From assembly GCA_019925105.1 (NCBI GenBank), contig JAHGAU010000001.1:434001-498000 (forward strand): a stretch of DNA of 64,000 bases, read 5' to 3'. Position numbers and translations under genes: made by a program. How positions within the stretch are numbered: the first letter of the stretch is position 1; each line of letters begins with the position of its first letter. The DNA comes from Niebla homalea (taxonomy: Eukaryota; Ascomycota; Lecanoromycetes; Lecanorales; Ramalinaceae). Of the stretch, positions 12,616-34,271 are shown piece after piece. The notes under the pieces were generated by a model, which saw only the letters and a list, made by a program, of their open reading frames with translations, searched no databases and had not been told where the DNA came from.

Positions 12616-13093
12616 TGGGATTGGAAAGCTTGCCGCTGTATAATTCGCGTTTAGAACTCCGGTGAACAGTAATCAGTTAGAAGCATTTGTAATTGACGGG
12701 AAGATGATTGTAGGTGAAGACTGAAGTCATGAGGTGTTGTTTATATTTTAGGCAAAGCGGTAACGTGCATTTAAACCCCGGAACAGTTCTTTGTTCCGTC
12801 GTATTCGGACCATACCCATGGAACACCCTGGATTCCCAACAGGGTTGGTTTTCAATAACATTTTGGAGAGTGATGATATGGCTCTGCTTCATTACAGGTG
12901 ATCATCACAAGGGTACGTTTCGCGCTTTCTGGTTGTTAATTAATGACTTAAGGGGTACACTACTATCGTATGCATTTCCTGTATCGATTCAAACCTCTTC
13001 TAGGCCTACAATAGGAGTCTAAAATGTTCAAATGAAGAGAACAGAGTATGAATCGAAATAACAGTTGTACGTCTTTCAGTTGGGACGAGACGA
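12616..13093. other. Intergenic, P450 upstream region
   Basis: Promoter side of the P450 and 3' side of the membrane-protein gene. Nothing else recognised. Confidence 0.5.
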
Positions 13094-14539
13094 CTACGGC
13101 TTTTGCCGAGGCTCTTCATGCCTGTCGGACGACACAGAAAAGGCATCTGTTCTCTGGATATCCCTATCATCGCGTAGGCCTACCACGCTCCCATCCCTCT
13201 GCTGCGTCTCGGCTCCCGAGGTTGAAAAGCACTTGGTGCCATAGATAAGGGTGTTTTCCTGGCGCGGCTGCTTTCGCTGTTCACCCAACTCCAGATCCTC
13301 ATATCCTGAGCGGCTGGACTGGTCAGATTTACTGCGCGTCTTCGATGACTTGGTGAAGGTGCTGCGAGCACTGCTCATGAGACGGAGGAAGGAGTTGCTG
13401 ACGGAGCGCAAGACTTTGGGGAATTGCATCTTGCTAGTGGCGCGGAGTGGCGGTACGCAGCCCATGATGATCACGAGACATTCCTCAACCCTATGTCCGA
13501 AAAGACTTGTGAGCCGAATAGGAAATGGCGTACCATAAGAGAATCCCTTGATTGAATACTTACGCTGACCAAAGAATCGCATTGCTGGCATTGTCTGATG
13601 CGATGTCAGTAAGACAATGATTCTATCTTTGATGGCAACCCACATTCGCTATCCGCAGTGCTCGAGTTGGATTGGGACGTGATAGTCTTCATGATTGAGG
13701 CCGCCATGGTGCTAAGTGCTGTCAGCGATGCTTCATATAAAAACCAAAAGATGCGCTGCACCTACAAAAGACCCAGGCTCATCACCAAAGCCAGCCCAAA
13801 CTTTTTCTGCAATGACATGTTCAAGTCCCATATGATCCATATTGGAAGCGCGACGTAAGTCAGGTCGCTAAATGTAAATAACGCTTGTAAGAGGTCAGCA
13901 TGGAGGTTCTATTTGGGGCATATGTTTGTCAGGACTGACACTGAAGCAAGTAGGCAAAGTCCTGCTGAATCTTTGGACTCCAGCGAGTTGCTGGGGTGGT
14001 TGGGTTCCAAAGCCCTTGGACCGGCCTAACTTGAACCCAAACGATGATGATAGTGACGACACCTACAACTGATTGTAGCGACGTGAATCCGATCAAAAAG
14101 CGTTTGAACCATGTCTTTGTCCGAAAGATACGGATCAGAAGGATGGTAATGGAGAACCTGGCAACGATAGACACAAGGATAGATGGTGTAGTAGTGATCC
14201 AGTCCCATTTTAGGATGTTAACGAGTTGATCAAAGGTTAAATCCAGATCATGTTTGCCAAGACCCCATCTGTAGCCCTCTGTGATGCACGCTTGGGCAAT
14301 GATGAGCAGAATCTGTACAAGTGATGAGTTCGTATAAGCGACGAAGAGGTTAGAGAACGACTAACGCCTGCCAGGAGCATTACCCAATCATCGGCGCCAA
14401 GAGCGTCCAGCACCTGTGAGCGGACTTGAAATCGTAGTGCGATCAGAACCAGGGCGATTGCTGTCAAGATCCATGATACTGATAGGATAAGTGGCCCTTT
14501 GCCTGGATTTGAAGGATCAACCGGGGCTGGCATATCCAT
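13094..14539 (-). CDS. Rhodopsin-domain / PTH11-like integral membrane protein
   Basis: Six exons (14366-14539, 13940-14312, 13766-13883, 13644-13711, 13564-13594, 13094-13490) join to 386 residues. The multi-helix core shows the order typical of the fungal rhodopsin-like family. It has an N-terminal outside segment, TM1 (SVSWILTAIALVLIALRF), LGADDWVMLLAG, later TM segments around SILVSIVARFSITILLIRIFR and VGVVTIIIVWVQVRPVQGLW, a FTFSDLTYVALPIWIIW segment, and ILWSAVEECLVIIMGCVPPLR near the end. The cytoplasmic tail is about 110 residues, Ser/Arg-rich and likely phosphorylated. Exon 5 is only 31 bases. Members are often near metabolite clusters in plant-associated fungi and some act as G-protein-type surface receptors. 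Ligand and function are unknown here. Confidence 0.85.
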
Positions 14540-15818
14540 CTTGAGCGGTGATTACTTGAGAAAGCAAAACATGTGACGAGTAAGACTGAGATATTACCAT
14601 AGCATAAACTTGGGTAAAAGCGCATAAATGTGGGAAAGGTGGACAACATAACCAGTGAGATGGGATGGGAGACCGATAGAAAGCCGGACAACTAGGTGGA
14701 AGGTCAAAGCATCGATCAGATTCAAGACCCGGTCGCATTCTCGTGTACGGCACCTATTCGAAAGTGCAATGGAAAAGGGGGGAGACGCAAAGGATGTGGA
14801 CACAATGGCTGACGTGAGATTATGTGCATGTGCTGCAGGTTGCAGCTGCCTAAATAAGGTATTTAGGCATAAATTGGATGTTGGAGGAGGTCTAGCCCCC
14901 CTATTCTGCTTAAAAGTACAGGCTCCGCTATGACGCCATTAGCCGGTAGAATATCGAGCAATGAGCCTGCCTCTTCAGCTCCTCCACCTCCCGGCGTCAT
15001 CCGGCCCCTTGGGTGCAAAGTCCGCTTTCGCCTACTTTCGGTGAGTGGAAGCTGACATGCATGGCCATCCATGATTGTGGTCCAGCTCCACCAATCAAAT
15101 TTTCATGGTGACATGCATCATAGCGTCACCAGTTCCGAGTGATGTGGATTACGTTGCTGGTGGATCCTGATTGCTTGGTATCTGCTAATGCAAATCGCGA
15201 ATCATTATTCGAGATATCCAACATGCATCAGGGGTCGTACATCTGACACGAAGGAAGTACTGCAGGTAATACTACCCTACAGTTCAAAACATATAGCAAT
15301 GACGCACCTCTTCCTCTGGATTCTCGAGCTGGCAACGAGAAGACGTCAGTGATCAAGGTTCATCATTATTATGTCGGGCAATGATGAAGTTGATGACGAG
15401 TCTTGTCAGTCAAGCGTGCTGCTCAGCCCAATCTGTGCGCGAGACGGCTATGCAATGGGCAAAGCTAAAATCTATTTGATTTACCTCGTGATAGTGAAGG
15501 CGACTCCCCAGGAGCGAAAATAATTGCAACGTGGGCAACCACACGATACCTGTAAAATGATAAGTGTTTGACAAATGAGAAGGGTTTTCCTTTAAAAGTT
15601 ACTCAGAATATCTTAGTGAGTTATGAGAATATAGTGATGATTGGGAGTTACTTGATCTTAGCGCGCACTTGTTGCAACTATTTTTCCTTCTGGGGAGGTT
15701 ACTCCTGAGGAGGGCGAGATTGCTCTCGGCCTGGAAAATGCCTCTTGGTCCATGCTTGATGTCCATTGTCAATTCTGTGCACGTCATATTTCTAGTGCTT
15801 TCTTCATAGCTTGATCTT
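14540..15818. other. Intergenic between membrane-protein and NRPS-like genes (divergent promoters)
   Basis: About 1.28 kb of shared upstream DNA for two divergent genes. It includes the dispersed repeat at 15648-15712 described separately. No further gene seen. Confidence 0.5.
15648..15712. repeat. Dispersed repeat copy A (matches 50961-51026)
   Basis: About 65 bases share a clear colinear match with 50961-51026. Common blocks are CTTGATCTTAGC, TTGCAA-TATTTTT and CTGGGGAG, with point differences in between. Probably a remnant of a transposable element; the family is not recognised. Confidence 0.6.
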
Positions 15819-18650
15819 ATGCACGAGAAACGTACGTATGTACACAACGCGGTAAGAATGCGTTCCAACAGCCTTCAAGCACTGCTGGAAGCCGCTGCCA
15901 GATCCAGTCCATCTCAGGGCCTCTTGATCTCTGCACATCGCTACACCAACTCATTCACAAAGATTAGCTACATTGAACTACTGAACCAGGCTCGGAAGTA
16001 CAGCCGTGTGTTGCAATGCATCGAAGGATTCCAATTAGCGAAGCCCATCCTCCTTCATCTCCAGGACCATTCGGATACATTTATCTGGTTCTGGGCAGCC
16101 CTGTTTGCTAATACCATACCCGTCCTCACTCCACCATTCAGCGACATTCCAGAGCAACGACAGAGGCACATTGGAGGATTGGCGGATCTGCTCGAAAACC
16201 CCATCTGCATCACCTCAAAGCAATTGCTTCCTCTATTCGATGGTCATGACAAGCTCAACATTCAAACAATCGAGTCACTGTCGTCGAGCGGCAAAGATGC
16301 CTCTGTAGTGCCCATTGCTCGGCTTGAGGGCCGCAAAAACGATGATCTTGCCATCCTTATGCTAACGTCTGGGAGCACTGGAGTCCCCAAGGCTGTACGC
16401 CTGAGCCATAATCAAATATGCTCGGCTGTCGCTGCAAAGGCCTCCTTTCGAGATGTACCAGAAGGCAAACCATTCCTCAATTGGATTGGCCTGGATCATG
16501 TGGCAAGTATCACGGAGATACATCTTACAGCTATGTATCTCGGGGTGGACCAAGTTCATCTCTATGCTTCGGATATCATTGCTCAACCTTTACGATTCCT
16601 AGCCCTTTTGAGTGAGTATCATGTTGCGCGAACTTTTGCACCGAATTTCTTCTTTGCCAAGCTCGTCGCTGCGATACAATCAGACCAAGGGCCAGCATGC
16701 TTGCAAGATTTGGACCTGAGTCAATTAGCATGGCTAGGCTCCGGAGGTGAAGCTAACGACGTAGGGCTATGCGCTACTCTTTCAAAGCAGCTAGGGGAAT
16801 GCGGCGCGCCTTCAAACGTGATCGTTCCAGGATTTGGCATGACAGAGACGTGCGCAGGGTCAATATACAATCTTGGGTGTCCGGAGTATGATGTCCGAAA
16901 TGACAAAGCGTTTACTTCCCTTGGTAAATGTATCTCTGGTGTGGAGATGCGAGTCACTATCACATCCACTGATCAAAGCGCAACACGAGCAGAGAAGAAC
17001 CAAGCAGGTAGCCTTGAGATGCGCGGCGCACCAATATTCGATGGCTACTACAGGAATCCTGAGGCCACGGCCGAGGCATTTACATCCGATGGATGGTTCA
17101 AAACCGGCGATCAGGCATTCATCGACTCAGAAGGCAATCTCAGCATGATCGGACGATCTAAAGAGACTTTGAATGTGAACGGCGTCAAACATGCCTTGCA
17201 GGACATAGAGCATCTCCTCGAGCAGGCTCTGACCTCACGTACAACTCGTGTGGTCTGCTTTCCTCATCGATCACCAGGATCATACACAGAACAACCGTAT
17301 ATCATGTATGCTTCTCCGACAGGTCTAGTGAGTGAGCACCAGCTTGTCGAGATCAACGATACCATTGTAAAACTAGTTATGCTTCACATCAGAGTCAGAC
17401 CGACGATACTTGGGCTGGAGGACGAGTCTCTACTACCGAGGACAACGCTTGGAAAGGTCTCCAGAGCCAGATTGCGGACAATGGTTGAGGCAGGCCACTT
17501 CGCAGATCAAAGCAAAACCCAGAACGCGATCATACAGAAATTCAGGCGAAAGACCGTACCGTCTGAAGCCAACGAAGCAGAGCGTCTTTTACTTGAAGAT
17601 TTCACTCTCACCTTGGGACTCGATCCTTCAACCTGGGGGCTCGAAACACCGATATTCGAAATGGGGGTAACGTCCATCGATCTCATCAGATTGAAACAGC
17701 GCATTGCAAACCGCCTCGGTGTTGACATCCCAATCACAACGCTCCTCCTCAACCCAACGACACGCTCAATGGCTTATGCTCTGAATGACTTAAGCACCTC
17801 CAAAATATACGACGCTGTTGTCCCACTCCGCCGCGAAGGCAGCAAGACCCCTCTCTGGCTTGTGCATCCTGGCACAGGCGAGATCCTTGTCTTCCTCGGC
17901 CTCTGTCAACACATCGAAGATCGACCCATCTACGCCTTGAGAGCTCGTGGTTTCGACGGTCACGACCCGTACTTTACTAGTATCGACGAAGCTGTCACTG
18001 CATATCACTTCGCCATTAGAAAGACACAGCCTAAAGGACCATATGCCATCGCAGGCTACTCATTTGGTACAATGCTCGCCTTCGAACTTGCAAAACGTCT
18101 TGAGCGGGGTAACAAGGAGGCAGTCCGATTCTTAGGCTCATTCAACCTGCCCCCGCATATCAAATGGCGGATGCAGCAGCTGGATTGGACTGCTTGCCTG
18201 CTACATTTGTGCTATTTCCTAGATTTGATGAGCGAATCGCATTCCAATACTATGGAGGCCGAACTTCGTCAAGGGGATATAGTGCGAGAGGCTGCAATAT
18301 CCACAGTGCTGTCAAGCGTCAGCAAAACGCGAATGGCCGATTTATCTCTCACTCCCGAAGCGCTCGCAGATTGGGCAGATCTGACGCACAGCATGCAGAG
18401 CATGGCGATTGACTACGAGCCTAGTGGAGCAGTTGAGCGGATGGATGTGTTCTATGCAAGTCCATTGAGTGTAGCAGCGCGATCGAAGGAGGAGTGGCTG
18501 AATGTGCATTTGAGCAAGTGGAAAAACTTTGCTAGCACGGACCCTGTATTCCATGAGGTTGGAGGGGCGCATTATACAATGCTGAGTCCTGAGCATGTCG
18601 AGGGGTTTGCGAAGACATTGAAAATGGCCCTAGAGGCTAGGAATGTCTAA
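15819..18650 (+). CDS. NRPS-like synthetase, A-T-TE (aryl quinone/furanone type)
   Basis: Single exon, 943 residues, no condensation domain. The adenylation domain covers about 20-555: core LTSGSTGVPK at 182-191, GFGMTETCAG at 338-347, TGDQ at 429-432, GRSKETLNVNGVK at 445-457, and the catalytic Lys of the TTLGK motif near 546. The carrier domain has EMGVTSIDLI with the phosphopantetheine Ser at 619. The thioesterase covers about 675-940, with GYSFG (Ser748) and GGAHYTM (His918). Enzymes with this layout and length (TdiA, MicA, AtrA, PgnA, BtyA types) activate arylpyruvates and dimerise them to benzoquinones, furanones or dioxolanones. The exact product is not predictable by eye. An internal ATG at codon 14 is an alternative start. 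It is the core gene of the 10.8-23.5 kb cluster. Confidence 0.92.
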   Translation: MHEKRTYVHNAVRMRSNSLQALLEAAARSSPSQGLLISAHRYTNSFTKISYIELLNQARKYSRVLQCIEGFQLAKPILLHLQDHSDTFIWFWAALFANTIPVLTPPFSDIPEQRQRHIGGLADLLENPICITSKQLLPLFDGHDKLNIQTIESLSSSGKDASVVPIARLEGRKNDDLAILMLTSGSTGVPKAVRLSHNQICSAVAAKASFRDVPEGKPFLNWIGLDHVASITEIHLTAMYLGVDQVHLYASDIIAQPLRFLALLSEYHVARTFAPNFFFAKLVAAIQSDQGPACLQDLDLSQLAWLGSGGEANDVGLCATLSKQLGECGAPSNVIVPGFGMTETCAGSIYNLGCPEYDVRNDKAFTSLGKCISGVEMRVTITSTDQSATRAEKNQAGSLEMRGAPIFDGYYRNPEATAEAFTSDGWFKTGDQAFIDSEGNLSMIGRSKETLNVNGVKHALQDIEHLLEQALTSRTTRVVCFPHRSPGSYTEQPYIMYASPTGLVSEHQLVEINDTIVKLVMLHIRVRPTILGLEDESLLPRTTLGKVSRARLRTMVEAGHFADQSKTQNAIIQKFRRKTVPSEANEAERLLLEDFTLTLGLDPSTWGLETPIFEMGVTSIDLIRLKQRIANRLGVDIPITTLLLNPTTRSMAYALNDLSTSKIYDAVVPLRREGSKTPLWLVHPGTGEILVFLGLCQHIEDRPIYALRARGFDGHDPYFTSIDEAVTAYHFAIRKTQPKGPYAIAGYSFGTMLAFELAKRLERGNKEAVRFLGSFNLPPHIKWRMQQLDWTACLLHLCYFLDLMSESHSNTMEAELRQGDIVREAAISTVLSSVSKTRMADLSLTPEALADWADLTHSMQSMAIDYEPSGAVERMDVFYASPLSVAARSKEEWLNVHLSKWKNFASTDPVFHEVGGAHYTMLSPEHVEGFAKTLKMALEARNV

Positions 18651-19007
18651 GGTAATGCACCAAACGTAAGTTTGCGTTCCCCTTTGCATGGCTTCTTTGG
18701 TTTAATCATACGTAGGACCACCGTGCTCCACAAAAATTGCAGAGAGCTTATTGAGATCACAGCATTTGGTTCCTTCACTCAGATGTAGCATAAGAACACA
18801 GAGAACTCGCACATAATCAGGAATTCACAGATTCCGTTGCGCAACGCAGATGCCATTTCCGAAAAAGCATCCTGCTACTGTTACAATTCCCCAACCCAGG
18901 GCAAAATTGACAAACATCTTCCCATCCTAACCGTTAACGTCGGTAATACTGATGGGACACAAGAGCACAATGTCCCCGCTGCAAAGAGCTAGGATATACC
19001 CTAGGCT
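18651..19007. other. Intergenic between convergent NRPS-like and P450 genes
   Basis: Convergent 3' ends. No feature beyond likely terminators. Confidence 0.5.
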
Positions 19008-20728
19008 CTATCCTTGTCTCCTTCGAATGCTGATCGTGGCCAACTCAGGCGGCATCAAAACATTCAAAATAGGTCGACTCTGCGGTCTCTCTTTGATACT
19101 TTGGATGTCGTAGTTTTGCATAACTTGCGCCATCGCCAGCGTCAGCATCTGTGTGGCGAGAAATCTCCCCGGACAAGCATGCCTGCCGTAACCGAAGGTG
19201 AGGAAGCGGTCGTTGATGGTAGTACAGGACTCGTGCTGGCCAGTATTAGCCGTACAATCCGATACTTTCTCAGAAATCTGCCGTTGCATATGATTTCCGG
19301 TAAAGCGGAAGGCACTGAATTGATAGGGATTGTTATAGAGATTTGGATCATGATGAATCGCTTGCGTTGGGACGCCAATCCGCGTTCCCCAAGGCATGAC
19401 CGTGTTATGGTCAATCTGGAGGCCGTCCTTTGCTGAGATCTAGACAAGCTGGTCAGCAGAGCTCACGAGGCCTGAAGAGAATTTGATTCACCACTCGCAT
19501 GAGCGAGACGACAGTAAAGCCAGAGATCCTCAACGATTCTTTGAGGCAAGAGTCGATTCGAGGCAAACTCGCCACACCGTCTTTGGTGGCGACATTCTTA
19601 CATTCCTCTCTCATTTCTTTGACAAAATCCTCGCTACACTCACTGCTGTACAAATCGAGTATACAATTCGTTAAGGCATAGGAAACGCCATGGATTGACG
19701 ACATCATGAGAATCAGCAGGCTTTGCGTCACGTGGGCTGCATCGGTGCGCTCCGGGTCTGTCCCAATTGATTCTTCGATCAAGTGCTGCAGGATGTCATC
19801 CTAGGATGAAGCTCAGCATTAGCAAGATAGCAGAAGAGAACAGAGACGTGTAACGGACCGGCAAGGTTTCTTTCGCCCGAGTCTGCGCCAATCTCTTCTC
19901 GATAAAAGGTATCAAGATACGCTGACAGGCAGCCAGGCGTCGTTTGGCTGGAAATGCCAGCAAAGGACCAAACAGCAGTCGCAATGGTCGAGGCAATGCT
20001 GTTATGAGGGCTGCGCTACCGAATACAGCGGTGGAGTACTGGCGAGTCTCTTCTAGAAGCTTTTCATCACGACACAACGGTAGCCCGAAGTACAGTCGGC
20101 TCAATGCACGAGATGTAATTTGAGAGCAGCTGTCATAGACTGTGACACCTGTCCACTTGTCTGTGGCATTCCAATATCTTCCAAAGCCAGTGGCCAGTTC
20201 TTCCGCAAGAGCACCGGTGAATCGTCCCACATCCTTTGTAAGGTGTTTCCTAACGACCTTGAAGGCACAATCGATTGCACTTCGATACACCTCTTCAGTA
20301 CCTATGGTATACTCCGGCTGCCACGTTTCGAGCTGTGTCTCCAATGCAGCAACCTGGTTGGGCGGCTTGCTCAGAATGTGTAGCTGGGATGATGGGATAA
20401 TAGCGACCGAGCCAGTACCCAGGGTGCAAATGGAGAAGAGATTTCCATACTTCGAATACTGGAGACTAGTTGTTAGTCTTCCCCTACTTCCAAACCAGAG
20501 CCATGGCACACACACCCTGCTGTAACCTTTAGACACAGCATCTCCTATTCCAGTAATCAGTTGAAGCAACGTTCTCAGCGTTGGGAAATAGCTGTCTCGT
20601 AGGGCAATAAATGGAAGCCTTTGTATGAATGCTTCAGCTGCATGATCGCTTTGTGTTCGACCACGTGAGAAAGCTACAACGACAACTGATACTACTAATG
20701 CTTCCGATAAAAGAGAAAGCCAAGTCAT
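19008..20728 (-). CDS. Cytochrome P450 with FGYGRHACPGRF haem loop
   Basis: Monooxygenase of 517 residues from four exons (20516-20728, 19859-20458, 19492-19800, 19008-19439). The haem-binding motif is FLTFGYGRHACPGRFLA. ESLRIS carries ExxR and an AFRF segment takes the PERF place. The N-terminus is hydrophobic (LLSEALVVSVVVVAF). The haem loop resembles the fungal group that includes kaurene-oxidase-like and indole-diterpene P450s. The first intron (20459-20515) is 57 bases with no stop and is a multiple of three. A CTAAC branch site and the better fit of YSR-YSKYG to the family indicate that it is removed. Convergent with the NRPS-like gene, so a tailoring role on its product is likely but inferred. 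Confidence 0.9.
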
Positions 20729-21801
20729 GATTTTTGAGTGACCTTACAATATGCTGTCAAGCTAACGCAGGACAAAGGGGATTTATTATCAAGATGGAAG
20801 ATTTGATAGGAGCAGCACTGAGGGTCCCTGCCCTCAGTCATAGGCGCGCCCAGGGGGGCTTTCCAGTCCCACGAATCTACTCGCAACATCTTGACCTGAT
20901 CAGCCCAATTACGTAGGACCAGGTACGGCTGAAATTGTTTCCACACCATCGAAAAATCGCGTCAGCACGAGTCTGATGCTGACAGGGGGTCATCGTACTA
21001 TTTGCGATTTATTGATCGGGCTATCCCTGCACTTGTGGGCTGCGCCATCTGAAGCACTCGCCAATAAGGGCAAAAGAAGGGTATGCTCGGCATTTTCAGA
21101 AATCCCAGGTCCTCACAAGTAGCGCCATGTTGGTGAGGAGGCGGCACTGTCAGCACCCGCATGACTGCTGGATTAGTATTGTCAGCCCATTGGCTGGAAA
21201 AACCTCCAGCTTACAGACCTCACGCCGCGACGATCGGTCCCGCACTTTCGGGAAAAGGAGAATCCCGGGCCACCAAGACACTCACGATTGATGATGGCAG
21301 AACGAAACATGGATTTCCTAGATATTGCGTGGTTGCGGCACGGCACGCTCATCCGCGACTTTTCGTTGCAGTGATACAGTCTAGGCCTACGGATACGAAC
21401 GGGTTGCCAAAGAGAGTATAACTAGTAGAGTCTTTCTGCATATTTTCACTATAACGAAAATCTCTGATTCGAGAGCAGCTCCCCTATCCCTTGCTGACTG
21501 ATGACTCATAATCACATCATGGCTATGCAATGTCATCAGAGTCCTTGAACAACCTCAGCCACTCCCACTTGTCCACATGCAGCTCCCTCGTCATCCACCT
21601 GAGGATAGATTCTCAACACGAAGTCGGACAACGGAGCTGGTCACAAGAAGGACATCCTTCGATGAGAAGCTAGTCCGATAGAGAGCTGCGGTCTCCAAGG
21701 GCCCATTGAAGTCTTCTTCTGCATTGCTGGCTTAATTTCTCGATAGTTGAACGTCTTCTTGACGTAGGGATAGCGGACACGATAATACCTAGATTAAGAA
21801 A
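20729..21801. other. Intergenic, divergent promoters of P450 and O-methyltransferase
   Basis: About 1.07 kb with no recognised gene. It probably holds both promoters. Confidence 0.5.
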
Positions 21802-23474
21802 ATGTCACCAGTTCAGCTCAACCAAGAGCCTCCCGCATGCCTCGAGACCAAGGCATCACTCCGAACAGACGACCTCGCAAGACAGGTCAAGGACCTGGCA
21901 GCCAAGTCAGACGATGCAGGCCGTCAAGAGCTTGTAGTCATGCTGCGGGATCTGGTAGGCTCCATCGAACGTCCAAATGAGACCCTACAACGTATTGGAT
22001 ATCTGGTACGCAGTGATTCAACCAGTCCAGGATACTTCTTGCTTGCACCACCAAGAATCACAAACTGATCGTGCCGTGGCTTTTAGCACCTTCAAACAGC
22101 CGCTGTACGTATTGGCTTCGACCTCAGGCTTTTTGAAACGATGACGAAGGACGAGGACCCAGTAAGCGTAGAGCAAATTGTGAAAACAGTTGGGGCAGAC
22201 CCTCATTTCATAGGTACCACCGCTTTACCTCCAGCGAATTAGTACTTGTACGCTCACGTATTGCACGAGAACAGGTCGTCTCATGACCTACCTCAGCTCT
22301 ATCGGTGTCGTCAAAGAAGCAGGCGTAGACCTCTACGCTGCCAACAATGTAACGAGAAATTTGGCCCTAGAGATGACAGAAGCGGGTATATGCCACTGGT
22401 CAGTCACCTTGAACTCATCGGCGTGTTACCCTGATAGAAAACCGTACTGACCAGAGCATCAGTTTCGAAACCATCGGGCCACAATACCAGGACCTCCCCC
22501 GCTTCATGCGCGAAACGAGCTATCAAAACCCCACCGACCACATGCACACCGTCTTCCAAACCAGCTGGCGATCCAACCTGCACCAATTCGCCTGGTTCAA
22601 GGACCACCCGGACAACCTCAAGTACTTCAACAATTACATGGCACTGCGCCGCACCGCCGACGTATCGTGGCTGTCCGTCTACCCGGTCGAAGAAGAGACC
22701 AAAGACTGGGATCCAGAGAAGCCGGTATATGTGAACATGGGCGGCGGAATCGGCCATCAGTGCCGGCAATTCAAGGAGCGATACCCGAATGTGCCGGGAA
22801 AGGTGATTCTGCAGGACCTCGAGCATTCAATTGGGAGCGCGTTGGAGACGGAGGGGGTGGAAAATATGATTCATAATTTCTTCGACCCGCAACCTGTCAA
22901 AGGTAGGATCAATCCTGCTCTCGGCCCTCGCCTTCTCCTGCCCTTCCTTTACTTTCGCGGGTCTTGTCTCTCCCCGTCTCTCTCTAATTCGCTCCCCCTT
23001 TCCCTCCGAACCCCCCCAACCTCCCCCCCTCCTTTCCTCCTCACCTGTAAGCTGCCTTCCCAACTGATACCAACCCTCAGGCGCCAAGTTCTACTTCACC
23101 CGCGGCGTGCTGCACAACCACCCCGACGCCCGCGCCCGTACCATCCTCTCGCACATTAAAGCCGCGATGAGCCCAGAATCAATCATCCTTCTCGACGAGT
23201 GGGTCTTGCCACTTCAGGGAGTGAGTTCCTACGCCGCGGGCATGGATCTGACGCTCATGGCGGCCATGGCTGGGGTGGAGCGCAACGAGCGGCAATGGAG
23301 GGAGTTGCTGGATAGTGTTGGGCTGAGGCTGGAGAGGGTCATGGTGTATAATGCTGTGAGTATACGTTTTGCGATTCGATATGGGTTTGATGCCATTTCA
23401 CAGCAGAAGTGATACTGACCGTGATTTCCGGTTAGGTGAGCTATGAGAGCGTCATGGATGTGAGGGTGAAATGA
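21802..23474 (+). CDS. SAM-dependent O-methyltransferase (COMT-like)
   Basis: Six exons (21802-22005, 22087-22213, 22275-22398, 22463-22902, 23081-23355, 23436-23474) join to 402 residues. The N-terminal winged-helix/dimerisation part includes HLQTAAVRIGFDLRLFETM. The SAM-binding motif is YVNMGGGIGHQCRQF, followed by GKVILQDLEHSI, and FYFTRGVLHNHPDA is the region that carries the catalytic-type His in this family. ESIILLDEWVLP and MDLTLMAAMAGVER complete the fold. Intron 4 is long for this window (178 bases) and strongly pyrimidine-rich. Fungal relatives methylate phenolic or aromatic hydroxyls of metabolites, which fits an aryl product of the neighbouring NRPS-like enzyme. The substrate is inferred only from context. 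Confidence 0.9.
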
Positions 23475-25351
23475 ATTTAGCGCATTGGACATTTCGATTC
23501 TTCGGAGCATGTGAGGGAGAGAGACAAGTGCGTGGCATGAAGGGTTTACATGTACTCAAGCACTGCACCACCATAGGCGCCAGCTGTCCCGAAAGCGGAG
23601 GTAAGGTATAGCGATTAGATCTTGATTGAAGAGTAGAAACCGCACCGCATCTTCTTGACCTTTCAGATCGCTGCTCAGTAAGAAGAAGTAGCAAACATAT
23701 CACATCCACACAATAATGTCGACACATGAAAGGAGGCAACACTCTGTCCCTCGAGCGCATCATCATCCCCTCATAACCGTCCCTCATCCACCACACCTCT
23801 CCAGATCACACAATGTTGCCCCAACCACTTCCAACTCGATCAACCATCCACACTCGTTATTGGGCCGGGCGAAGCGCGTTCTGCATGAATGATATTTCTC
23901 ATCATTAACGCAACCAACCTCCAAATTCGCTGGGGGTCGACTGACCAACCCAAAGGGCTTCTCGATCTAACCACTTCTGGCACAACTCCGCTCTTCCAGC
24001 GTCGGTTGTCGGCCGACATTCTATTAGCGTGAAGCTTGCGAGTGCTTGCTTGGCACAAGTACAAAGAGCAACCCCTGGAGATAATTCTGGTGGAAGAAGC
24101 CTTGAGCAACGCCCACTATTCGATCATCGTATTGGTAATTGGAGATGCGGTATCTCGAATTAAGTTATTCTTTGGATAGGGGTTACGTATTAAAGACCCT
24201 CAGGGGTTGGCGGTCACCGTAGGTAGCGCTACCCGCAATACCGGCTCACTACTATGAGAGGTGTGGTGACTCAAACTAGACGTTGAGTAAGGCTCGAACA
24301 AATTGATATGGTAGTAGCCAACAACATCTCAGGAGAGATGTGGTTTTGTTTATTTGGTGCTCAGCATTTTGCAATAGCTTCTCCAACACGCCAGCGAAGC
24401 ACCGGGGTAATGACTGCTCATGCGCATGAGCATCCAAGTTGCTGGCAAGCATGGCTGTAACAACCTCGTCGAGAGACTTTGTCATGAGCATTGCGCAGTG
24501 ACCGTCTTTCCCGGCTTTACCAAGTATCGATCTGGAGAGTATCGGATGAGACCGTTGAGCTGGATCGACCTGATCTTGAGTCAAGGCTGCAATGTTGCTC
24601 TGCGTCGTGAAGGCCAGTGAGAAGACCATTGATTGTAGAAGTTTTAGTACCAGCTTTGAGATGCTCGATCTCGGTGAAATGCGATCCTAGGAGCATACAT
24701 GTTCTCCTGGAAACCAAACTGTCACGGGTGCGGTAGGGCTTTTATCAGCTTATCAGCAGACCCATCTCGCACTCAGCACAGCCAATTAGCAATCCAGACA
24801 CTTACCACACCACCTAAACCCTGACACAAAGCAATGGGTCCTTCGCATCATTCCCCTGTTATCTCCCACTTACCCAAAGTAATATCGAAGAGCTCGCTCG
24901 TTCGCCACGTCTCCTATTGTTTCCAAATCGGGGCTGAAGCTTGACAATCATTGTCAGATAGCAAAGGAAATCTATGGTTTGGGTGAACACTGACCCTTCC
25001 TGCGCTTTCTCACATGCACTTGTTTTCGTAGCCGGGATATATATAATCACTACGTCGTTGCAGTTGCAATACATATAAAACAGCCCAACTAAATATATAG
25101 CTCGACCTGGAGGTGGCGATGATTCCGGAGTCATGCATTGCATGTGTGTTCTTAAATTGGGGCGCTACTTTGCTTCCATCAGATTCAGAGTGCATTTCCA
25201 TCCTTTGTCTGCGGCAATAACAAGACTTTGACCGAAGAAGGGCTTTGTTGTGCTGTCTCGACACTTGCGGTGTCAGAAAAACAAAAATGATACACTAGCG
25301 AGCTACCACTATGGTCTTCCTCTTTATATATAGCAGGGTCTGCTTCTTACA
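23475..25351. other. Intergenic stretch, no gene recognised
   Basis: About 1.9 kb. The longest ATG-started frame is on the minus strand at 24276-24629 (117 residues). It has no recognisable domain and is not called. A TATATATA stretch at about 25323-25331 may serve the next gene. Confidence 0.4.
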
Positions 25352-27724
25352 TTGTTAGGTACGATCCACAATCGTCAAACGTCCATTTCTACGATAAATC
25401 ATCCTCAGAACCAAAGAAAGCCTCTGTCGATTGCATCATCTCACTCAATACTTTTTGAAATTCCTATAGATGTGTTCAATCTTCTTATCGACCACCTGGA
25501 CAAACCTTCCATTTACAGACTGTCGCGAACATGCAGCACCTTCTGCAGACATCCATCGATTCAAGCGGCAATATTTCATGACCATCTTAGCCGGGATGAG
25601 ATTGAGTCTTGGAGGTGTGAGCGATACCTCTGCAAATCAGGCAAGGTCAAGCCAAGGGGTAGGTGGCCACATCACTTCTCTCGGGGCATCACAAGCACAA
25701 CTGGGGCGCTAGTGCGATACATGTGCGTCCCTGAATGGGTTAATGCCAACGACCTGAAACAAATTGATGAGTCTTGTGGAAACGTTGAAGCAATCGACTT
25801 TTCAACGACAAGGGAGGCTATTGATGCAACCAGGCTAGGGACGCAACTGGAGCTGAATGGCCACTTCGCATTTCCCCTTGTGCTTGATAAATGCCAGAGG
25901 CTACTTGAAGGCGTAAAGAGAGTTAGTGTCAATTACGGGAATGGGTGCAAACTCGAGACGATAGGCCTACAATCCTTTCCAGAAGGACTCCCGCGGCTCT
26001 TGAAGTTGGCAACAAGACTCAAGGTATTACAAGTCTGTTGCAGATATCGGAATTGGCGTTGGGTGATTGGAGGAGGCTTTGACGAGATACCACAGCGTGC
26101 AGAGACTGCACAGGACCTCTGTCGCGCGATTGTCGAGAACGTTGGGCAGCACCTTCAACGACTCAGCATCGCGAGAGCACCTTTCATCATTCCCAACTTG
26201 TACGACTTCACGCTAGGATTGGAAACCTTGCCGAATCTGAAAACCATACAGGTGCCTGTGCACCATGACCTCCAGTGGTATCAAAGAGGATATTTTGAGG
26301 GGATGCGCGATTCCCCGGGCTCACATCCTATGATGGCGCCTTGGCAATATTTGAACGCTTTGCGCCGCGTGGAGGAGCGTGGAAGGTTCGCAATTCGTAA
26401 TTCGGACTCGGCAGACGGATGGCAGAGCAATCCAAGGGCATTCTTCCCTTCCAGCCGCGTGAACGATGCAGTCGACCCAGAATTCGACATGACGCAGTAT
26501 GCATCGCCATCCTATCGCAAAATCGGCTGGACGCCAGTGTGGAACTGGCTAAAATTCTTCAGACTGCATTGTCCAAGAGGGCCGCCGTATCCGCTAAGTT
26601 GGAGTCTTTATTGGGAGCTGACAGGTGCACGACAGCTTTTCAAAGCACTTCATCAAGCTGGTGCATATGTCTCTGTATCCTTCAATGCGAACTATACGGG
26701 TGGCGCTCTGTTCGCACAGTCACGGGACGTCCAACGAGAACGCTGTCCTAAGGACGCAGCATTCCTGTTTGGCGATGACGAAGATGGGAGAAACCAGATT
26801 GTCAGCAATGAAAAAAATCAACTCCCCGTATCTGCCTTCGTGGGGTTCAACTCTTTTGAGGATGAATCAGACACGATAGAGACTCCTGCCACACGTTTGA
26901 GGACGAATCGGAGACATATCGCCCGGGACCTAGCTTTCGAACAGGTCTGGCAATGCAAGCCACCCATGGTGCCAGGGCATCCAGAAGCTTTCATTCCCTG
27001 CACGGAGGCGCACTTGGAACCAAACCCACCTTTTGCTCTTGGTCAGACATGTGATCTTCCGAATTGTTGCGATACGATGACCGACGTCCGAGTAATCTAT
27101 GACCAGACTTTCGAGGAGTGCGTCTCGATCTTCAGGGATTTTCATCCAGACAAGATGATGGCGACTGACCTCAATGATCATGCACTTCGGCGCGCATGCC
27201 GTCGTCATCTAGGGAAAAGGCTCGAAGAGGAATCCAAAAGATTAGCAATCCTGTTCAGATCCTTTAGATCACATTTCCATCAGCTGAGACGCCTGGTCTT
27301 GTGCTTACCAGCAGCACTGTACCCCGACAGCGACCAGACATTTGTAGACCATTGTCTTCCTGGCACTGGATGGGATGTTTCCAGACCTGGGAAGAAGAGC
27401 GAAATGCCTCTACTAAGCTTTCTGAGCATCAACTCAGCTGCCAGGGAGTTCTCGTTGGAGCAATGTCCATTTATTTCCCGGGTCTTTACGCGGGCACAGG
27501 TCACGAGTGATGGTAACAGCAGGATCACATTTGAAGAAGACTTGTCTGAAATTGTACGCCCTTCGATTGACCTCAAGAGCCTTGGTATACCCACCATGGA
27601 GACACTAGTGACCTGTCCCTTGGAGGAACAATTTGCGTACCAGGATGATTTTGTGATTCACCGCACCATGGCTGCATGTTACAAGGAAGGCGAGAGGGAC
27701 ATTCTGGTTAGTGGAGATTCTTAG
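25352..27724 (+). CDS. F-box-like protein, large single exon; start unresolved
   Basis: Open frame of 790 codons. Near residues 34-69, ILFEIPIDVFNLLIDHLDKPSIYRLSRTC-type sequence matches an F-box, which would dock to Skp1 in an SCF ubiquitin ligase. The rest has scattered Leu-rich stretches but no repeat domain that I can name. The frame opens with TTG, and the first in-frame ATG is at codon 124 (25721), after the F-box. The true start is therefore a non-ATG codon, lies in an upstream exon (a possible acceptor ends at TTAG just before 25360), or has been lost. An out-of-frame ATG at 25470 opens an 80-codon frame across the F-box. Substrate and role are unknown. Confidence 0.65.
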   Translation: MLGTIHNRQTSISTINHPQNQRKPLSIASSHSILFEIPIDVFNLLIDHLDKPSIYRLSRTCSTFCRHPSIQAAIFHDHLSRDEIESWRCERYLCKSGKVKPRGRWPHHFSRGITSTTGALVRYMCVPEWVNANDLKQIDESCGNVEAIDFSTTREAIDATRLGTQLELNGHFAFPLVLDKCQRLLEGVKRVSVNYGNGCKLETIGLQSFPEGLPRLLKLATRLKVLQVCCRYRNWRWVIGGGFDEIPQRAETAQDLCRAIVENVGQHLQRLSIARAPFIIPNLYDFTLGLETLPNLKTIQVPVHHDLQWYQRGYFEGMRDSPGSHPMMAPWQYLNALRRVEERGRFAIRNSDSADGWQSNPRAFFPSSRVNDAVDPEFDMTQYASPSYRKIGWTPVWNWLKFFRLHCPRGPPYPLSWSLYWELTGARQLFKALHQAGAYVSVSFNANYTGGALFAQSRDVQRERCPKDAAFLFGDDEDGRNQIVSNEKNQLPVSAFVGFNSFEDESDTIETPATRLRTNRRHIARDLAFEQVWQCKPPMVPGHPEAFIPCTEAHLEPNPPFALGQTCDLPNCCDTMTDVRVIYDQTFEECVSIFRDFHPDKMMATDLNDHALRRACRRHLGKRLEEESKRLAILFRSFRSHFHQLRRLVLCLPAALYPDSDQTFVDHCLPGTGWDVSRPGKKSEMPLLSFLSINSAAREFSLEQCPFISRVFTRAQVTSDGNSRITFEEDLSEIVRPSIDLKSLGIPTMETLVTCPLEEQFAYQDDFVIHRTMAACYKEGERDILVSGDS

Positions 27725-28546: not shown

Positions 28547-28858
28547 CTAGGTTTCATTGGCGTCGGAGAGGGGCGGTGCAGCGTTCCCTTCATAGGCCTC
28601 GTCGGCTTCGGAATGAGACGGTAGAGTCATTCCAAACCAGGCCATATCGGCGTCGGCGTCAGAGCGGGATGGTATAATCTTGCCGTCCCAGGCTTCGTCG
28701 GCGTCAGAGCGTATGTTCAGGGATCCAGCTACTATTTGTCAGGCCACTCGCTCTTGAACACTTTGAATCGAGTGACGCTTACCTTTTGGCATCAGGGGTA
28801 GAGCTTGCGTACCAGCGGCAAGGAGTGCTATGATTGAGATCATTTTGGGGAGCTGCAT
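28547..28858 (-). CDS. Small secreted repeat peptide, candidate RiPP precursor
   Basis: Two exons (28783-28858, 28547-28731) separated by a 51-base intron with donor GTAAGC, a CTGAC branch-like site and acceptor TAG, giving 86 residues. Residues 1-20 form a signal peptide (MISIIALLAAGTQA is the core). From about residue 33 there are three imperfect tandem units: RSDADEAWDGKIIPS, then SDADADMAWFGMTLPS, then SEADEAYEGNAAPP, and a partial SDANET at the end. Each has an acidic (D/E)AD-type spacer, A, an aromatic (W, W, Y), one variable residue, G, three variable residues and P. Signal peptide plus alternating acidic spacer and aromatic core is the plan of fungal repeat precursors (dikaritins, some pheromones). 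No KR kexin site is present; a single R or H precedes the spacer. It faces a UstYa-type oxidase gene 1.3 kb away. The gene model was found by eye and needs transcript support. Confidence 0.55.
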
Positions 28859-30197
28859 GTTGTTGAGAAGAGTGGCGTAGGATCAAAGATTGAGTATCAA
28901 TGATGACTGCTGATTCAGACTCCAAATTTCTGACTTCGGTTTGATGTAGAGAAGCCTGGGCTGGGTTATGGAGGAAGGACAGCTCGAGATTTATATCTCC
29001 GACAATGACCACTCATAGAGTCTATGTGGACAGCGGTCCAGACTTGAGCTCAAAAATGTATCATGCTCGGAACGAGAAGGCATGCGACAACATATGAGCA
29101 ATCTGTATGGTTACAATGGCAGGGACTCCAGACAGAAGACGCATGCTGCCGTCATTCTTCTCATTTGTCCGGGACTATCAACATTAGAAAGGCGAGTTTT
29201 GGGCGCCCAATGGATCTCACTTGTACGTGAATACTTGAGCAAGTTACGAGCTCAAGTACAAATCAGTCTCTCCACTCAAAAGGGCCGCAGATGGGCAATG
29301 ACAAGGCGGCTTTGCTTGCTATACATTCGTCTCACTCCATCGGGTCACGAGCAAAGACATCAGAATGCAACATCTTCGTTGCGAGGATATGCGAAAATAG
29401 ACGTCGATACTATTGGTCACTCTCGTATGAGAATCACAGGCCATCTGGAAACGTCCTTACCAAGGCTGCAATGCAGAAGCATCAAGGGCGCGCTGGACTC
29501 CTCCTATATTTCTGTCCAATGACCACGGATCCTGTTGTGGTCTTCCCAGCCTAATGGGTTCTCTAGCCCTGCGTGTGCATACCTCTTCGCGTGGCAGAAA
29601 TCCATTAAAGCTTATTGTCTAAATGGAGTTCCCAGACAACAAGAATCTGGTAGAATGAGTCAATCTCGCGAGAATTGATGGGCCTTTCATTTGGAGTTTT
29701 GTCCGAGAGATTGTCTGTGCATGCATTCAGCTGCATGGGCTCATCCGCTCCCTGCCCTTCCTCTTTAGTCTGGTCGCCCAAAGCTAGGCACATTCTATCT
29801 TTGCAAACCGGCGAGACGTTGATACGTCGAATGTCAAAGCGATATGTATGCAATATCGTGGGTTGAAGCGGGCACCAATCAGGCAGGATATCCTGTATTC
29901 GTTCACATTCCCGTACCCTCCTTGATCAGCATGAGTTCACGCGGGTAGGTGGACCTTAGATATGGTGACTGGAAGCTTCGTTCTTCTCTGGGCATGATGT
30001 TGTGCTTCAGTCTAGACCATTTCATGATTTAACCTATTCCAATACCAGAAGACCCTTGCGCCCGTAGATATAGGATACACCCACTCTTCGACAGGTTTGG
30101 TGCCCTTTCTAAGAACCTACAAGTCCTAGCATCTGATCAATCCTTATTCAAGGAGAAGCGCGTTCTAAGCAGTTCAGCGACAACCTAGCGATAATCA
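28859..30197. other. Divergent upstream region between peptide gene and UstYa-like gene
   Basis: About 1.34 kb. Plus-strand frames at 29082-29522 and 29291-29554 are open but resemble nothing known and are not called. It probably holds the promoters of both flanking genes. Confidence 0.45.
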
Positions 30198-31352
30198 ATG
30201 GCTCAGTACACTGTCGTAAGGGAAGGATTCGATCAGGGGTACGATGACCAAGAAAGTGGAATCTCCGATGACAATCTCTTGCTCGAAAAGAGCATCACAC
30301 CGCAAATCCAAAAACCATTCTGTCGTCGACATCTTGGGTCCATCTTTCTCCATTCTCTTTGCTTCAGCCTCAACCTCGTGATTCTCATTTCAACACTACG
30401 ATGGGTCAATAGGGACTGTCCCTACGGCGTGTATGGGCCTGATCTCGTTTATAGTGAGCATGCCAATCAACTGAGTAGGACTCTTCAGCTAATGACCATC
30501 TCCCATAGCACCAGCACGAGAAGTTATCGCCTATCAGAGTCAATTGTGGGATTCGACAAACATTTTCCACACCAATGGATCGGTCAACCCAGGCCGCCTC
30601 CACAAATGCTTTGGACCTCCCTCTCTAGAGTCGGATAATGCTTGGACAGAGCTCATACAATGTAAACACCTCTCTCGCCTTAGTGTTGACGACTGATGAC
30701 ACCGGCTCAAAATTGCTGCAGACCAGAACATCCGTCTTTCGTACGATGAGCTCGGAGAATATCGCGATAGAGAAGGTCTTGTTGAGCTCGCCGATGGATC
30801 GGGCTACTATGCTACTCTATCAACCTACCACTCCATTCACTGTCAGCCTCTGTCGAACATCCAATTCCTCCGCAACCAGCTCAAGACTGTGCAGGTATCA
30901 AGCGTCTTCATCATCTCATGTACTTTGAACATTATTATCCCAACGTGACCGACCGAGAAGCAATGTTCATCAAACAACATGGGCGTATGCTAAGACCTCT
31001 CCACGTTTGTTGCTCAGCATATCTTGTGTGCTGAACTAGCATACAGAGCACTGCCTCAACATCCTGCTTCAAAACGCTCAGTGCACCCCTGATCTCAGCA
31101 TACTCCCCATGCAGTGGGGTGCGACGTGAGTCTAAACCATCAACATGATCTCATCCCTGATGAGCAACTCTTCTGGCCAGTGAGCCTGACACGCGTACTA
31201 GTACCCGGGTCCCCATTGGCCTAGACCAGGGCCACCATCAATGCATGCGATGGGACAAGATCGACAGCTGGATGAAGCAACGCAGCCTCGATGTCTTTGC
31301 GCCTGGAGTCATTGTGCATCCAACGCTTGGTATGTCATCCCAACCACAATGA
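30198..31352 (+). CDS. UstYa/DUF3328 family oxidase
   Basis: Six exons (30198-30453, 30509-30661, 30722-30841, 30895-30984, 31047-31125, 31181-31352) join to 289 residues, all junctions GT-AG and in phase. A cytosolic N-terminus is followed by one TM helix (about 46-68). The lumenal part has the family's FGPPSLESDNAWTELI (PS-x-E-x-D-x-AW motif, about 120-135) and the two diagnostic HxxHC motifs, HSIHC at 173-177 and HGQHC at 205-209, each formed across an intron. YFEHYYPN lies between them as usual. In UstYa and relatives these motifs are needed for oxidative cyclisation of ribosomal peptides, with ether or C-C links at aromatic side chains, and for some other oxidations in NRPS/PKS pathways. 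It is divergent to the repeat-peptide gene, which makes that peptide the natural candidate substrate. Confidence 0.9.
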
Positions 31353-31742
31353 AGATCTTGCTTCGAGTTGACAAAAACGTAGGGGAGGCGTATCCTGGCG
31401 GCCAGGGCGATAACATCGGCATCGTGATCGACCATTTGATGAGCGAGCACGCGTAAGCCGAAAGTGTTTCGTACAAGGGATTTTCATCCGCTTGGGCATT
31501 TACTTAGGACGTGGTCGTAGTCTTCTGGTGCAAGTACCTCCCCGTTATGTCATGTGGCCAACGTGTCAGTCCGGAGTGCGCGCTTTGCCAAGAGGAAGAT
31601 GACAGACCCAAATGCTACGCTTCATACTGAGTACCAGTGCCTTTGGTTAAACTCTTAAATCGACGTAGACATATGTGGAAGCCCACTCGCTATCAATGAT
31701 GACTTTGAGATCTGCTCATACTGCCGTGATCAACTTCCACCC
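31353..31742. other. Intergenic, nothing recognised
   Basis: Downstream of the UstYa-like gene. No coding signal seen. Confidence 0.5.
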
Positions 31743-33061: not shown

Positions 33062-34271
33062 TCATACTGAAGCCTCTCTGGCCGATCTTCCCTTCATCAA
33101 AGCATACTGTTCGTTGTTGTACAATGCTCCCGGGTGATATCTTGGGCAGTAAATGCTCCAGACCAGGTTCCCACTCAGGCTGTATCGCATCGCCTCAACG
33201 TATTTACGCAGATCCATTGAGATATCGACCCTTTTTCTGGTATCTTCCGCAACTCGCACAGAATCCTCGACGTGTTCCTTAATTATCCTTCGGCTGAGGT
33301 TCTGCGCTTCAAGCTCTGTTATCGAATGCTCCCTCATCAAGACCCAGATAGCGTTCATAGCGTGAACCTCACCCGCTTCGGCAGCGGCATCGCGCTCCTT
33401 GTTCCAGGAGAAAAGGTCATTCGTAAGGCTGACGGCAGCAAATGCCGGCCTCACGAGCTGCTTGCATAGGCTCGTCTCATTTTCGGGAATGGCAAGGGCC
33501 ATACCAAAGGTAACCGTGCTAAGCCAGAGCCTTGAGAGGTGATTGGCGCAGTATTTCCTGTGGAGACATGTGCAGTTGACTCACAATTCACCTGCATCAG
33601 TGATTCTGTACGGAAGATACTCCTCTAAAAACGCGAACGGCATTGAGCGGGGGCGGCTAGCGGCGAGGCGTATAAAGGTTGCCCACAATTTCATGCTGGT
33701 TCTACCTCTTTCCGGATCAATAGTCATCATTTCCTTGAGGATCTGGGACTGGATCTGCTTCTCCCCAGTGCTTTCGACGCCCTTATTAAACTTCTCGGAT
33801 GGCTCCGGGAATGTGTCAAGCAATTGATTGTACCCGTCAGGGCTCTTCGAGATTTTTCAATTGAGGAACCAATTAGGGAAATTCAGAACGTGCTCACATC
33901 GCCCGTGCTACCGCGTTCCATTGCGTCTGTGCATTGGCGAAGTCAATGGAAGGACACTCCTAGGAACAACCAATGGGGACTGTGTAGTGCTTACCGTCGT
34001 ACAGAAACGCGAATTCGTTGGCATATGATACTATCTCAAGCCGCTCTGGACGACACTCCGGGACGGTCGCTTGTATGAAATTATGCACCGGACCTAGTCC
34101 CCCTTTTTAGAGTCCGATGGGTGTAACAAGCTTGCTCCAGTCCTCCTGAGCTCGTAGGGCTCCTTCAATTTCTATATCGGTTCCTTGATTCCTCCAAAGT
34201 GGTATCTCATTGCAAAGGGATTGTGTTTCGTATGTTGCTGGGTCGACCAGATCTGAAAATTGATAGTTCAT
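33062..34271 (-). pseudogene. Class I terpene synthase with premature stop
   Basis: Four exons (33995-34271, 33898-33926, 33585-33844, 33062-33530) join in phase to a 345-codon frame. NEFAFLYDD followed by AME across the first intron makes the aspartate-rich DDxxE motif. TNDLFSWNKE is the NSE/DTE Mg-binding motif, and WSIYCPRYHP is the C-terminal Arg-Tyr region. [22 protein letters not shown] is typical of the cyclase domain of fungal di/sesterterpene synthases, but the C-terminal prenyltransferase domain of chimeric enzymes is absent. Codon 55 is TAA (34107-34109), between TPIGL and KGGLGP, where the family continues without a break. All else, including splice sites, is sound, so the loss looks recent. 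Base-call error cannot be excluded. Head-to-head with a P450. Confidence 0.8.

Follow-up and report, generated by a model that had tools for sequence, protein, structure and literature searches.

Closest described systems and the Niebla homalea locus

In the dikaritin or ust-type loci of fungi, such as those of ustiloxin, phomopsin, asperipin-2a and victorin, a precursor with a signal peptide and tandem units bearing aromatic cores is found together with a UstYa oxidase carrying two HxxHC motifs. The same elements are present in a pair of facing genes in Niebla homalea (Ascomycota, Ramalinaceae), which are the subject of the present analysis. The pair lies within a stretch of 64,000 nucleotides, hereafter called the window, that corresponds to positions 434,001 to 498,000 of contig JAHGAU010000001.1 (contig C1 of the 50.6-Mb, 52-contig assembly GCA_019925105.1). 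Judging from the sequence, the two genes are moderately likely to form a minimal dikaritin-like pair for a ribosomally synthesised and post-translationally modified peptide (RiPP). A first-pass annotation of the window had proposed a new fungal RiPP locus, and this proposal stands in part: the oxidase belongs to a clade whose members mostly neighbour repeat precursors, whereas the small gene lacks the dibasic Kex2 sites typical of ustiloxin-type precursors. The locus looks like a member of the known family of fungal cyclic-peptide loci, unusual within it because the usual dibasic cutting sites are absent.

Like the asperipin-2a locus, the window locus has a single DUF3328 gene, with no tyrosinase match nearby. 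Its precursor differs from those of dikaritin loci by the lack of dibasic Kex2 sites and by its three diverged units. A comparable picture emerges from the KEX2-processed repeat proteins (KEPs), which share with the window precursor a secretory signal and repeats of more than eight residues, here three in number. The definition set out in PMC7329392 requires, however, that the repeats sit between KR, KK, RK or RR. The window precursor is thus not a KEP by this published criterion, since none of these pairs is found between its units.

A survey of 111 genomes of lichen fungi has recently described UstYa-type genes across the Lecanoromycetes, with no conserved repeats in two clans (PMC12048977). 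This 2025 paper, which reports many UstYa-type clusters, headed its section on the missing precursors as a mystery. The two clans, R1 and R2 of the Parmeliaceae, resemble the window locus in having a DUF3328 signature gene with the HxxHC motif, and the nearest relative of the window oxidase is from Letharia columbiana; they differ from it by the absence of conserved repeats. The partners listed for the clans are tyrosinase and methyltransferase (R1) and a GNAT acetyltransferase (R2) (PMC12048977); the one tyrosinase match on the window's contig is about 2.4 Mb away. In titles and beginnings of abstracts in open-licence PubMed Central, no description of repeat precursors beside UstYa genes in lichen fungi was found among the matches listed.

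A candidate repeat precursor gene facing an intact oxidase gene

The small gene occupies positions 28547–28858 of the minus strand and encodes, in two predicted exons, an 86-residue product made of a putative signal peptide followed by three diverged repeats (Table 1), in agreement with the first-pass annotation. The signal exon contains the hydrophobic stretch MISIIALLA, with a hydropathy of 2.87 over nine residues compared with 2.03–2.81 in five other precursors of the same genome. From hydropathy and the residues at −3 and −1, cleavage is likely between TQA and LP. The aromatic residues of the three units are W, W and Y, respectively, with an additional F in unit 2.

The repeat is well above the level expected by chance: past the signal peptide, the self-repeat score is 60, against a mean of 19.2 (standard deviation 4.0) in shuffled sequences, and it was reached in none of 6000 shuffles (Gumbel p ~1e-6). 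By raw repeat score the open reading frame (ORF) ranks 56th among 3385 six-frame ORFs from 22 sequences (273,811 bases). As we interpret them, the higher-ranking rows comprise the KR-type precursors and alternative frames of these, frames rich in proline or serine, and repeats that are simple or of low complexity, several of the rows having low z.

The codon usage of exon 2 in the claimed frame scores 0.187 per codon, the five other frames ranging from −0.129 to 0.061, under a model whose training set, eight long window ORFs assumed to be coding, also supplied the segments used for comparison. None of the 151 open 60-codon segments from non-coding frames reaches this score, and 72% of 79 coding segments lie at or below it. 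Differences between units are distributed 11/14/22 over the three codon positions when all 15 columns are used (p = 0.038). This test replaced a third-position excess of 15/23, which was discarded as circular since its columns had been picked for conservation. The repeat and the coding frame are therefore unlikely to be due to chance.

The DUF3328 gene is placed head-to-head with the precursor gene, 1.34 kb from its start codon. It encodes a UstYa-type oxidase with two exon-level matches to PF11807 (33.9 and 30.4 bits, cut-off 25). Both HxxHC motifs, HSIHC and HGQHC, are formed across introns, and the divergent, intact oxidase of the first-pass annotation is confirmed, the spliced model having neither stop nor frameshift. 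When the Letharia columbiana homologue (P0001) alone guides a spliced alignment, the same seven exons are obtained minus the last two residues, again without stop or frameshift. An apparent shift from the HSIHC frame into the following one is explained by a 53-bp intron (30842–30894), recovered by this alignment. The end of the gene had to be corrected: the earlier six-exon model stopped at 31352, inside the sixth intron, and was dropped when P0001 revealed a further exon, which brings the end to 31456.

P0001 is 65% identical to the first oxidase model over 98% of its length and 66% identical to the corrected one over 99%, the figure being 82% over 137 columns of the tree described below. A second close relative was found on another contig, and among the homologues listed the next is from Ptychographa xylographoides (46% identity). 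The orthologues in these two species are HO173_011308 (Letharia columbiana) and MMC19_006291 (Ptychographa xylographoides). Taken alone, the relatives of this one gene would suggest a lichen-forming lecanoromycete, perhaps of the Parmeliaceae, the family in which Letharia is placed. Comparison with 48 homologues, picked by hand from the best 120 of 172 matches, shows that the window oxidase keeps 21 of 22 invariant or nearly invariant positions, both HxxHC motifs included. It has one strong hydrophobic stretch, at about residues 46–64. In a structure model of the Letharia homologue (mean predicted local distance difference test score 73.7), the motifs are carried by two successive helices (173–188 and 199–222) behind a long N-terminal helix (49–76). 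A sequence search of the PDB gave no match, and Foldseek gave none there at E ≤ 0.001. The two genes appear to be intact and to code for protein, and the UstYa clade that includes the oxidase is mostly paired with repeat precursors in this genome.

Precursor–oxidase loci elsewhere in the genome

Evidence bearing on this pairing comes from the other UstYa genes of the same genome. PF11807 gives 33 exon-level matches, which were grouped by hand into 25 genes, namely the window gene plus 24 more that are spread over 21 stretches of 10 kb. Tandem-repeat precursors adjoin oxidases at six of these stretches, designated L011, L012, L013, L015, L016 and L020. KR runs of at least three occur in five of the six precursors; in the L012 precursor there are two KR and three units of 30 residues each.

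A tree of 27 rows was built, for which the 24 other oxidases were modelled over the domain only, by profile-guided splicing; its midpoint rooting and two long branches (L022 and L031) restrict what can be concluded from it. The window oxidase falls there in a clade with support 100/99, together with P0001, P0002 and the oxidases of L011, L012 (L012+), L013, L015 (L015+), L016, L020 and L024. A KR-containing repeat precursor is found at six of the seven other clade loci, no farther than about 2.3 kb from the domain as modelled, against none of the 14 UstYa loci outside the clade. The corresponding Fisher p of 1.3e-4 is descriptive only, because the clade was chosen after the labels had been seen and the loci, all from one genome, are related by descent. 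The strongest support for a RiPP locus lies here, since most clade oxidases in this genome have a repeat precursor with KR sites as a neighbour. The pairing of the window precursor with its oxidase appears likely.

The arrangement of these loci varies. At L011, L013 and L016 the precursor is divergent from the clade oxidase, as in the window, whereas at L012 it is divergent from a non-clade oxidase; the precursors of L015 and L020 are not divergent. The L012− and L015− oxidases, which are second genes of precursor loci, fall outside the clade. In five of the six precursors the repeat frame is preceded, within 130 nt, by a signal-peptide-like start, the starts available at L020 being unconvincing. 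When the choice of donors was restricted, L011 and L015 could each be modelled as a signal exon and a repeat exon separated by one intron, and L012, L013 and L016 gave no such model.

The remaining clade member, L024 (contig C12), has DELHC as first motif in its model, and 28 kb of its sequence yielded no convincing precursor with repeats; it is possibly a decaying locus. A KR run of three devoid of tandem repeats at L019 (6429–6725) was not counted as a precursor. The same holds for two KR runs of three within the window, at 10462–10617 and 1841–2260. Both are absent from the tandem-repeat list, which leaves the small gene with the SDAD repeat as the only repeat candidate near the window oxidase. 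By eye, the plus-strand frame 6429–6725 of L019 (contig C40) looks like a GNAT acetyltransferase, the kind of partner listed for Clan R2 (PMC12048977), about 1.3 kb from a UstYa gene.

Processing sites, proposed mechanism and alternatives

Among the six canonical precursors, that of L020, which is of the KRHDADAAYEVYE type, aligns best with the window precursor (score 43), with a common RxDADxA[WY] unit, and its oxidase is in the same 93/91 subclade. The numbers of shuffles, out of 1000, that score as high are 5 for L020, 13 for L013, 41 for L016, 521 for L011, 694 for L012 and 747 for L015. After six tests, a relationship between the window precursor and the KR-type precursor of L020 is suggestive only, and weak. 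In their alignment, the Arg of the L020 KR pairs with the Arg of the window IR and SR. The two loci differ in that L020 has kept KR and RR sites, that the first motif reads NELHC in its oxidase model, and that only the window genes are divergent. From its sequence, the window precursor reads as dikaritin-like, with monobasic or lost processing sites.

Several observations weigh against a RiPP pair. Past the signal peptide, the precursor has no dibasic pair at all and its unit junctions read IR, SR and SH, unlike the six canonical precursors of the genome, all of which have dibasic sites. Its units are only three and have diverged. No homologue was found at E ≤ 1 (nine candidates, about 5.8 billion proteins searched), nor any second copy elsewhere in the genome. 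On the oxidase side, residue 214 is Leu, as it is in P0001, where 90% or more of the 48 homologues have Arg. At least three relatives of the oxidase (P0044, P0049 and P0060) bear the UniRef name of cyclochlorotine biosynthesis protein, which refers to a non-ribosomal pathway. Other biosynthetic genes are also present in the window. The C-terminal domain of a terpene synthase (PF19086; 33065–33580, minus strand) lies 1.6 kb past the oxidase end, and a gene resembling a non-ribosomal peptide synthetase (NRPS), with AMP-binding, PP-binding and Thioesterase domains, lies to the left of the precursor (15810–18647).

For a dikaritin-like pair, the following sequence of events can be proposed. The small gene would be translated and its product would enter the endoplasmic reticulum (ER) by means of the signal peptide. 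In each unit, the acidic S-D/E-A-D-x-A spacer may serve as a recognition stretch; it would be followed by a variable core [W/Y]-x-G-x-x-x-P, predicted as WDGKIIP, WFGMTLP and YEGNAAP. The DUF3328 protein CctR is described in PMC12435403 as membrane-anchored, luminal and copper-dependent, its two HxxHC motifs forming a binuclear site. A single transmembrane helix would likewise anchor the window oxidase and leave the catalytic domain in the ER or Golgi lumen. The two motifs of the oxidase would make a binuclear copper site, and the enzyme would oxidise or cross-link side chains of the core, probably at W/Y. The encounter of a secreted repeat substrate with a luminal oxidase would follow, by analogy, the established dikaritin logic. 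The core boundaries and any cyclisation are our predictions from the sequence. The weakest step is the release of the units, which might occur after a single Arg (IR, SR) instead of KR, the third boundary (SH) being either left uncut or cut by another protease. Peptides ending after a single Arg have been obtained from heterologously expressed KEPs, possibly via KEX2, as reported in PMC9769878, and PMC2515848 mentions Kex2 processing at sites with other P2 residues. A more specific proposal, in which the substrate of a KR-free UstYa system has W/Y-x-G-x-x-x-P cores and yields either peptides released at single Arg or one multi-core cross-linked peptide, is only tentative.

The terpene synthase domain and the genes to the left, namely the NRPS-like gene, two cytochrome P450 stretches and an O-methyltransferase stretch, give some substance to another explanation, that an unrelated small secreted protein lies by chance beside an oxidase whose actual substrate comes from the terpene synthase or from the NRPS-like cluster (~10.8–23.4 kb). 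UstYa proteins are indeed used in non-RiPP pathways as well, according to PMC12048977 and PMC12435403. This explanation is nevertheless unlikely in view of the repeat precursors at most other clade loci, and of the fact that the sole small secreted gene with repeats detected here faces the oxidase, in the layout of L011, L013 and L016. A second scenario, that of a relict, seems less likely still: a former KR-type precursor would have lost its processing sites and the locus would no longer make separate peptides. L020 has KR or RR at the places where the window precursor shows IR, SR and SH, which fits with such a loss, as do the few and diverged units. What argues against decay is the open frame with its coding-like codon usage and the intact oxidase, conserved at nearly all the positions compared, which keeps HxxHC where the L020 and L024 models deviate in the first motif. 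Moreover, Ser precedes the basic residue at two boundaries, which implies that the loss of the sites would predate the duplication of the units.

Two further possibilities bear on the small gene alone. The acidic Ala-containing dipeptides before the aromatic core recall the STE13-type spacers of alpha-pheromones, as presented in PMC9769878, and might point to a pheromone-type precursor, or to a secreted peptide that stays linear, in either case untouched by the oxidase. Starting from Arg, however, the dipeptides read SD-AD-EA and not repeated XA/XP, and nearly all KEPs annotated as mating factors or pheromones, with three exceptions, have no DUF3328 gene nearby according to PMC7329392; this explanation is very improbable. 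A chance ORF with chance splice sites might be suspected from the shortness of the gene and from the lack of a homologue. The shuffle and codon comparisons, in which neither score was ever reached, make it the most improbable of these explanations. A minimal dikaritin-like RiPP pair is the reading retained here.

Genomic surroundings

The tyrosinase gene found missing beside the locus in the first-pass annotation is indeed lacking: a genome-wide PF00264 search gave none near the oxidase, the distant match mentioned above being the only one on this contig. In total, this search gave eleven tyrosinase exon matches, and those on contigs bearing UstYa genes are about 0.1–2.4 Mb from the UstYa gene; the precursor loci therefore appear to be tyrosinase-free. 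A Pfam scan of 20 chosen ORFs of the window recognised no transporter, reductase or peptidase close by. The recognised O-methyltransferase stretch closest to the precursor, at 23068–23409, is some 5 kb away and groups with the NRPS-like gene.

The NRPS-like gene is also accompanied by the P450 stretches (10779–11630 and 19011–19439), and the region 10779–23409 looks like a separate biosynthetic cluster. A stretch with the fungal rhodopsin domain PF20684 is found at 13932–14360 on the minus strand. Just upstream of the terpene synthase stretch, the frame 33581–33856 has no Pfam match and may be a further exon. Finally, a 796-residue open frame at 25334–27721 (plus strand) has no Pfam match at E ≤ 0.01; by eye, its start is F-box-like.

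Table 1. Coordinates of the precursor–oxidase locus in the window and of the repeat precursors found beside UstYa genes elsewhere in the genome.
Feature	Position	Strand	Description
Divergent intergenic region	28859–30197		1.34 kb between start codons; putative shared promoter
Precursor exon 1	28783–28858	−	MQLPKMISIIALLAAGTQALPLMPK; signal peptide; gene model
Precursor intron	28732–28782	−	51 bp, predicted; canonical, with GTAAGC donor, CTGAC branch-like site and TAG acceptor
Precursor exon 2	28547–28731	−	VAGSLNI, three units, tail LSDANET, stop; model, coding score and shuffle test
Repeat unit 1	28667–28711	−	RSDADEAWDGKIIPS; codons and coordinates counted from exon 2
Repeat unit 2	28616–28666	−	RSDADADMAWFGMTLPS; codons and coordinates counted from exon 2
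Repeat unit 3	28571–28615	−	HSEADEAYEGNAAPP; codons and coordinates counted from exon 2
UstYa/DUF3328 (PF11807) oxidase	30198–31456	+	299 residues, seven exons; profile match and spliced models
Oxidase exons	30198–30453, 30509–30661, 30722–30841, 30895–30984, 31047–31125, 31202–31329, 31383–31456	+	Stop included
Motif 1, HSIHC	Exons 3–4, 30722–30984	+	Residues 173–177; formed across intron 30842–30894
Motif 2, HGQHC	Exons 4–5, 30895–31125	+	Residues 205–209; formed across intron 30985–31046
L011 precursor	Contig C3, 7018–7424	+	KR-type; signal-peptide-like start; UstYa nearby
L012 precursor	Contig C35, 6453–6850	+	KR-type; signal-peptide-like start; UstYa nearby
L013 precursor	Contig C8, 3523–3941	−	KR-type; signal-peptide-like start; UstYa nearby
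L015 precursor	Contig C14, 3069–3600	+	Nine KR; unit KREVEDGPIAYPDAY; two adjoining UstYa genes
L016 precursor	Contig C38, 7300–7731	+	Six KR; unit KREPQENDLQYKYGKYAEE; divergent from UstYa gene
L020 precursor	Contig C29, 7497–7715	+	Short, KR-type; KRHDADAAYEVYE/KRKDADAATGISE; no convincing signal exon

Implications for peptide biosynthesis in lichen fungi

This single genome contains six precursor–oxidase loci of the KR type and one that is free of dibasic sites. The predicted core sequences would become directly testable by mass spectrometry. These loci are a reason to look for repeats around UstYa genes without demanding KR. If the tentative system with a KR-free substrate is real, searches for KEPs or other precursors that demand dibasic sites would miss loci of this kind, which may partly explain the apparent lack of precursors in the UstYa clusters of lichen fungi.

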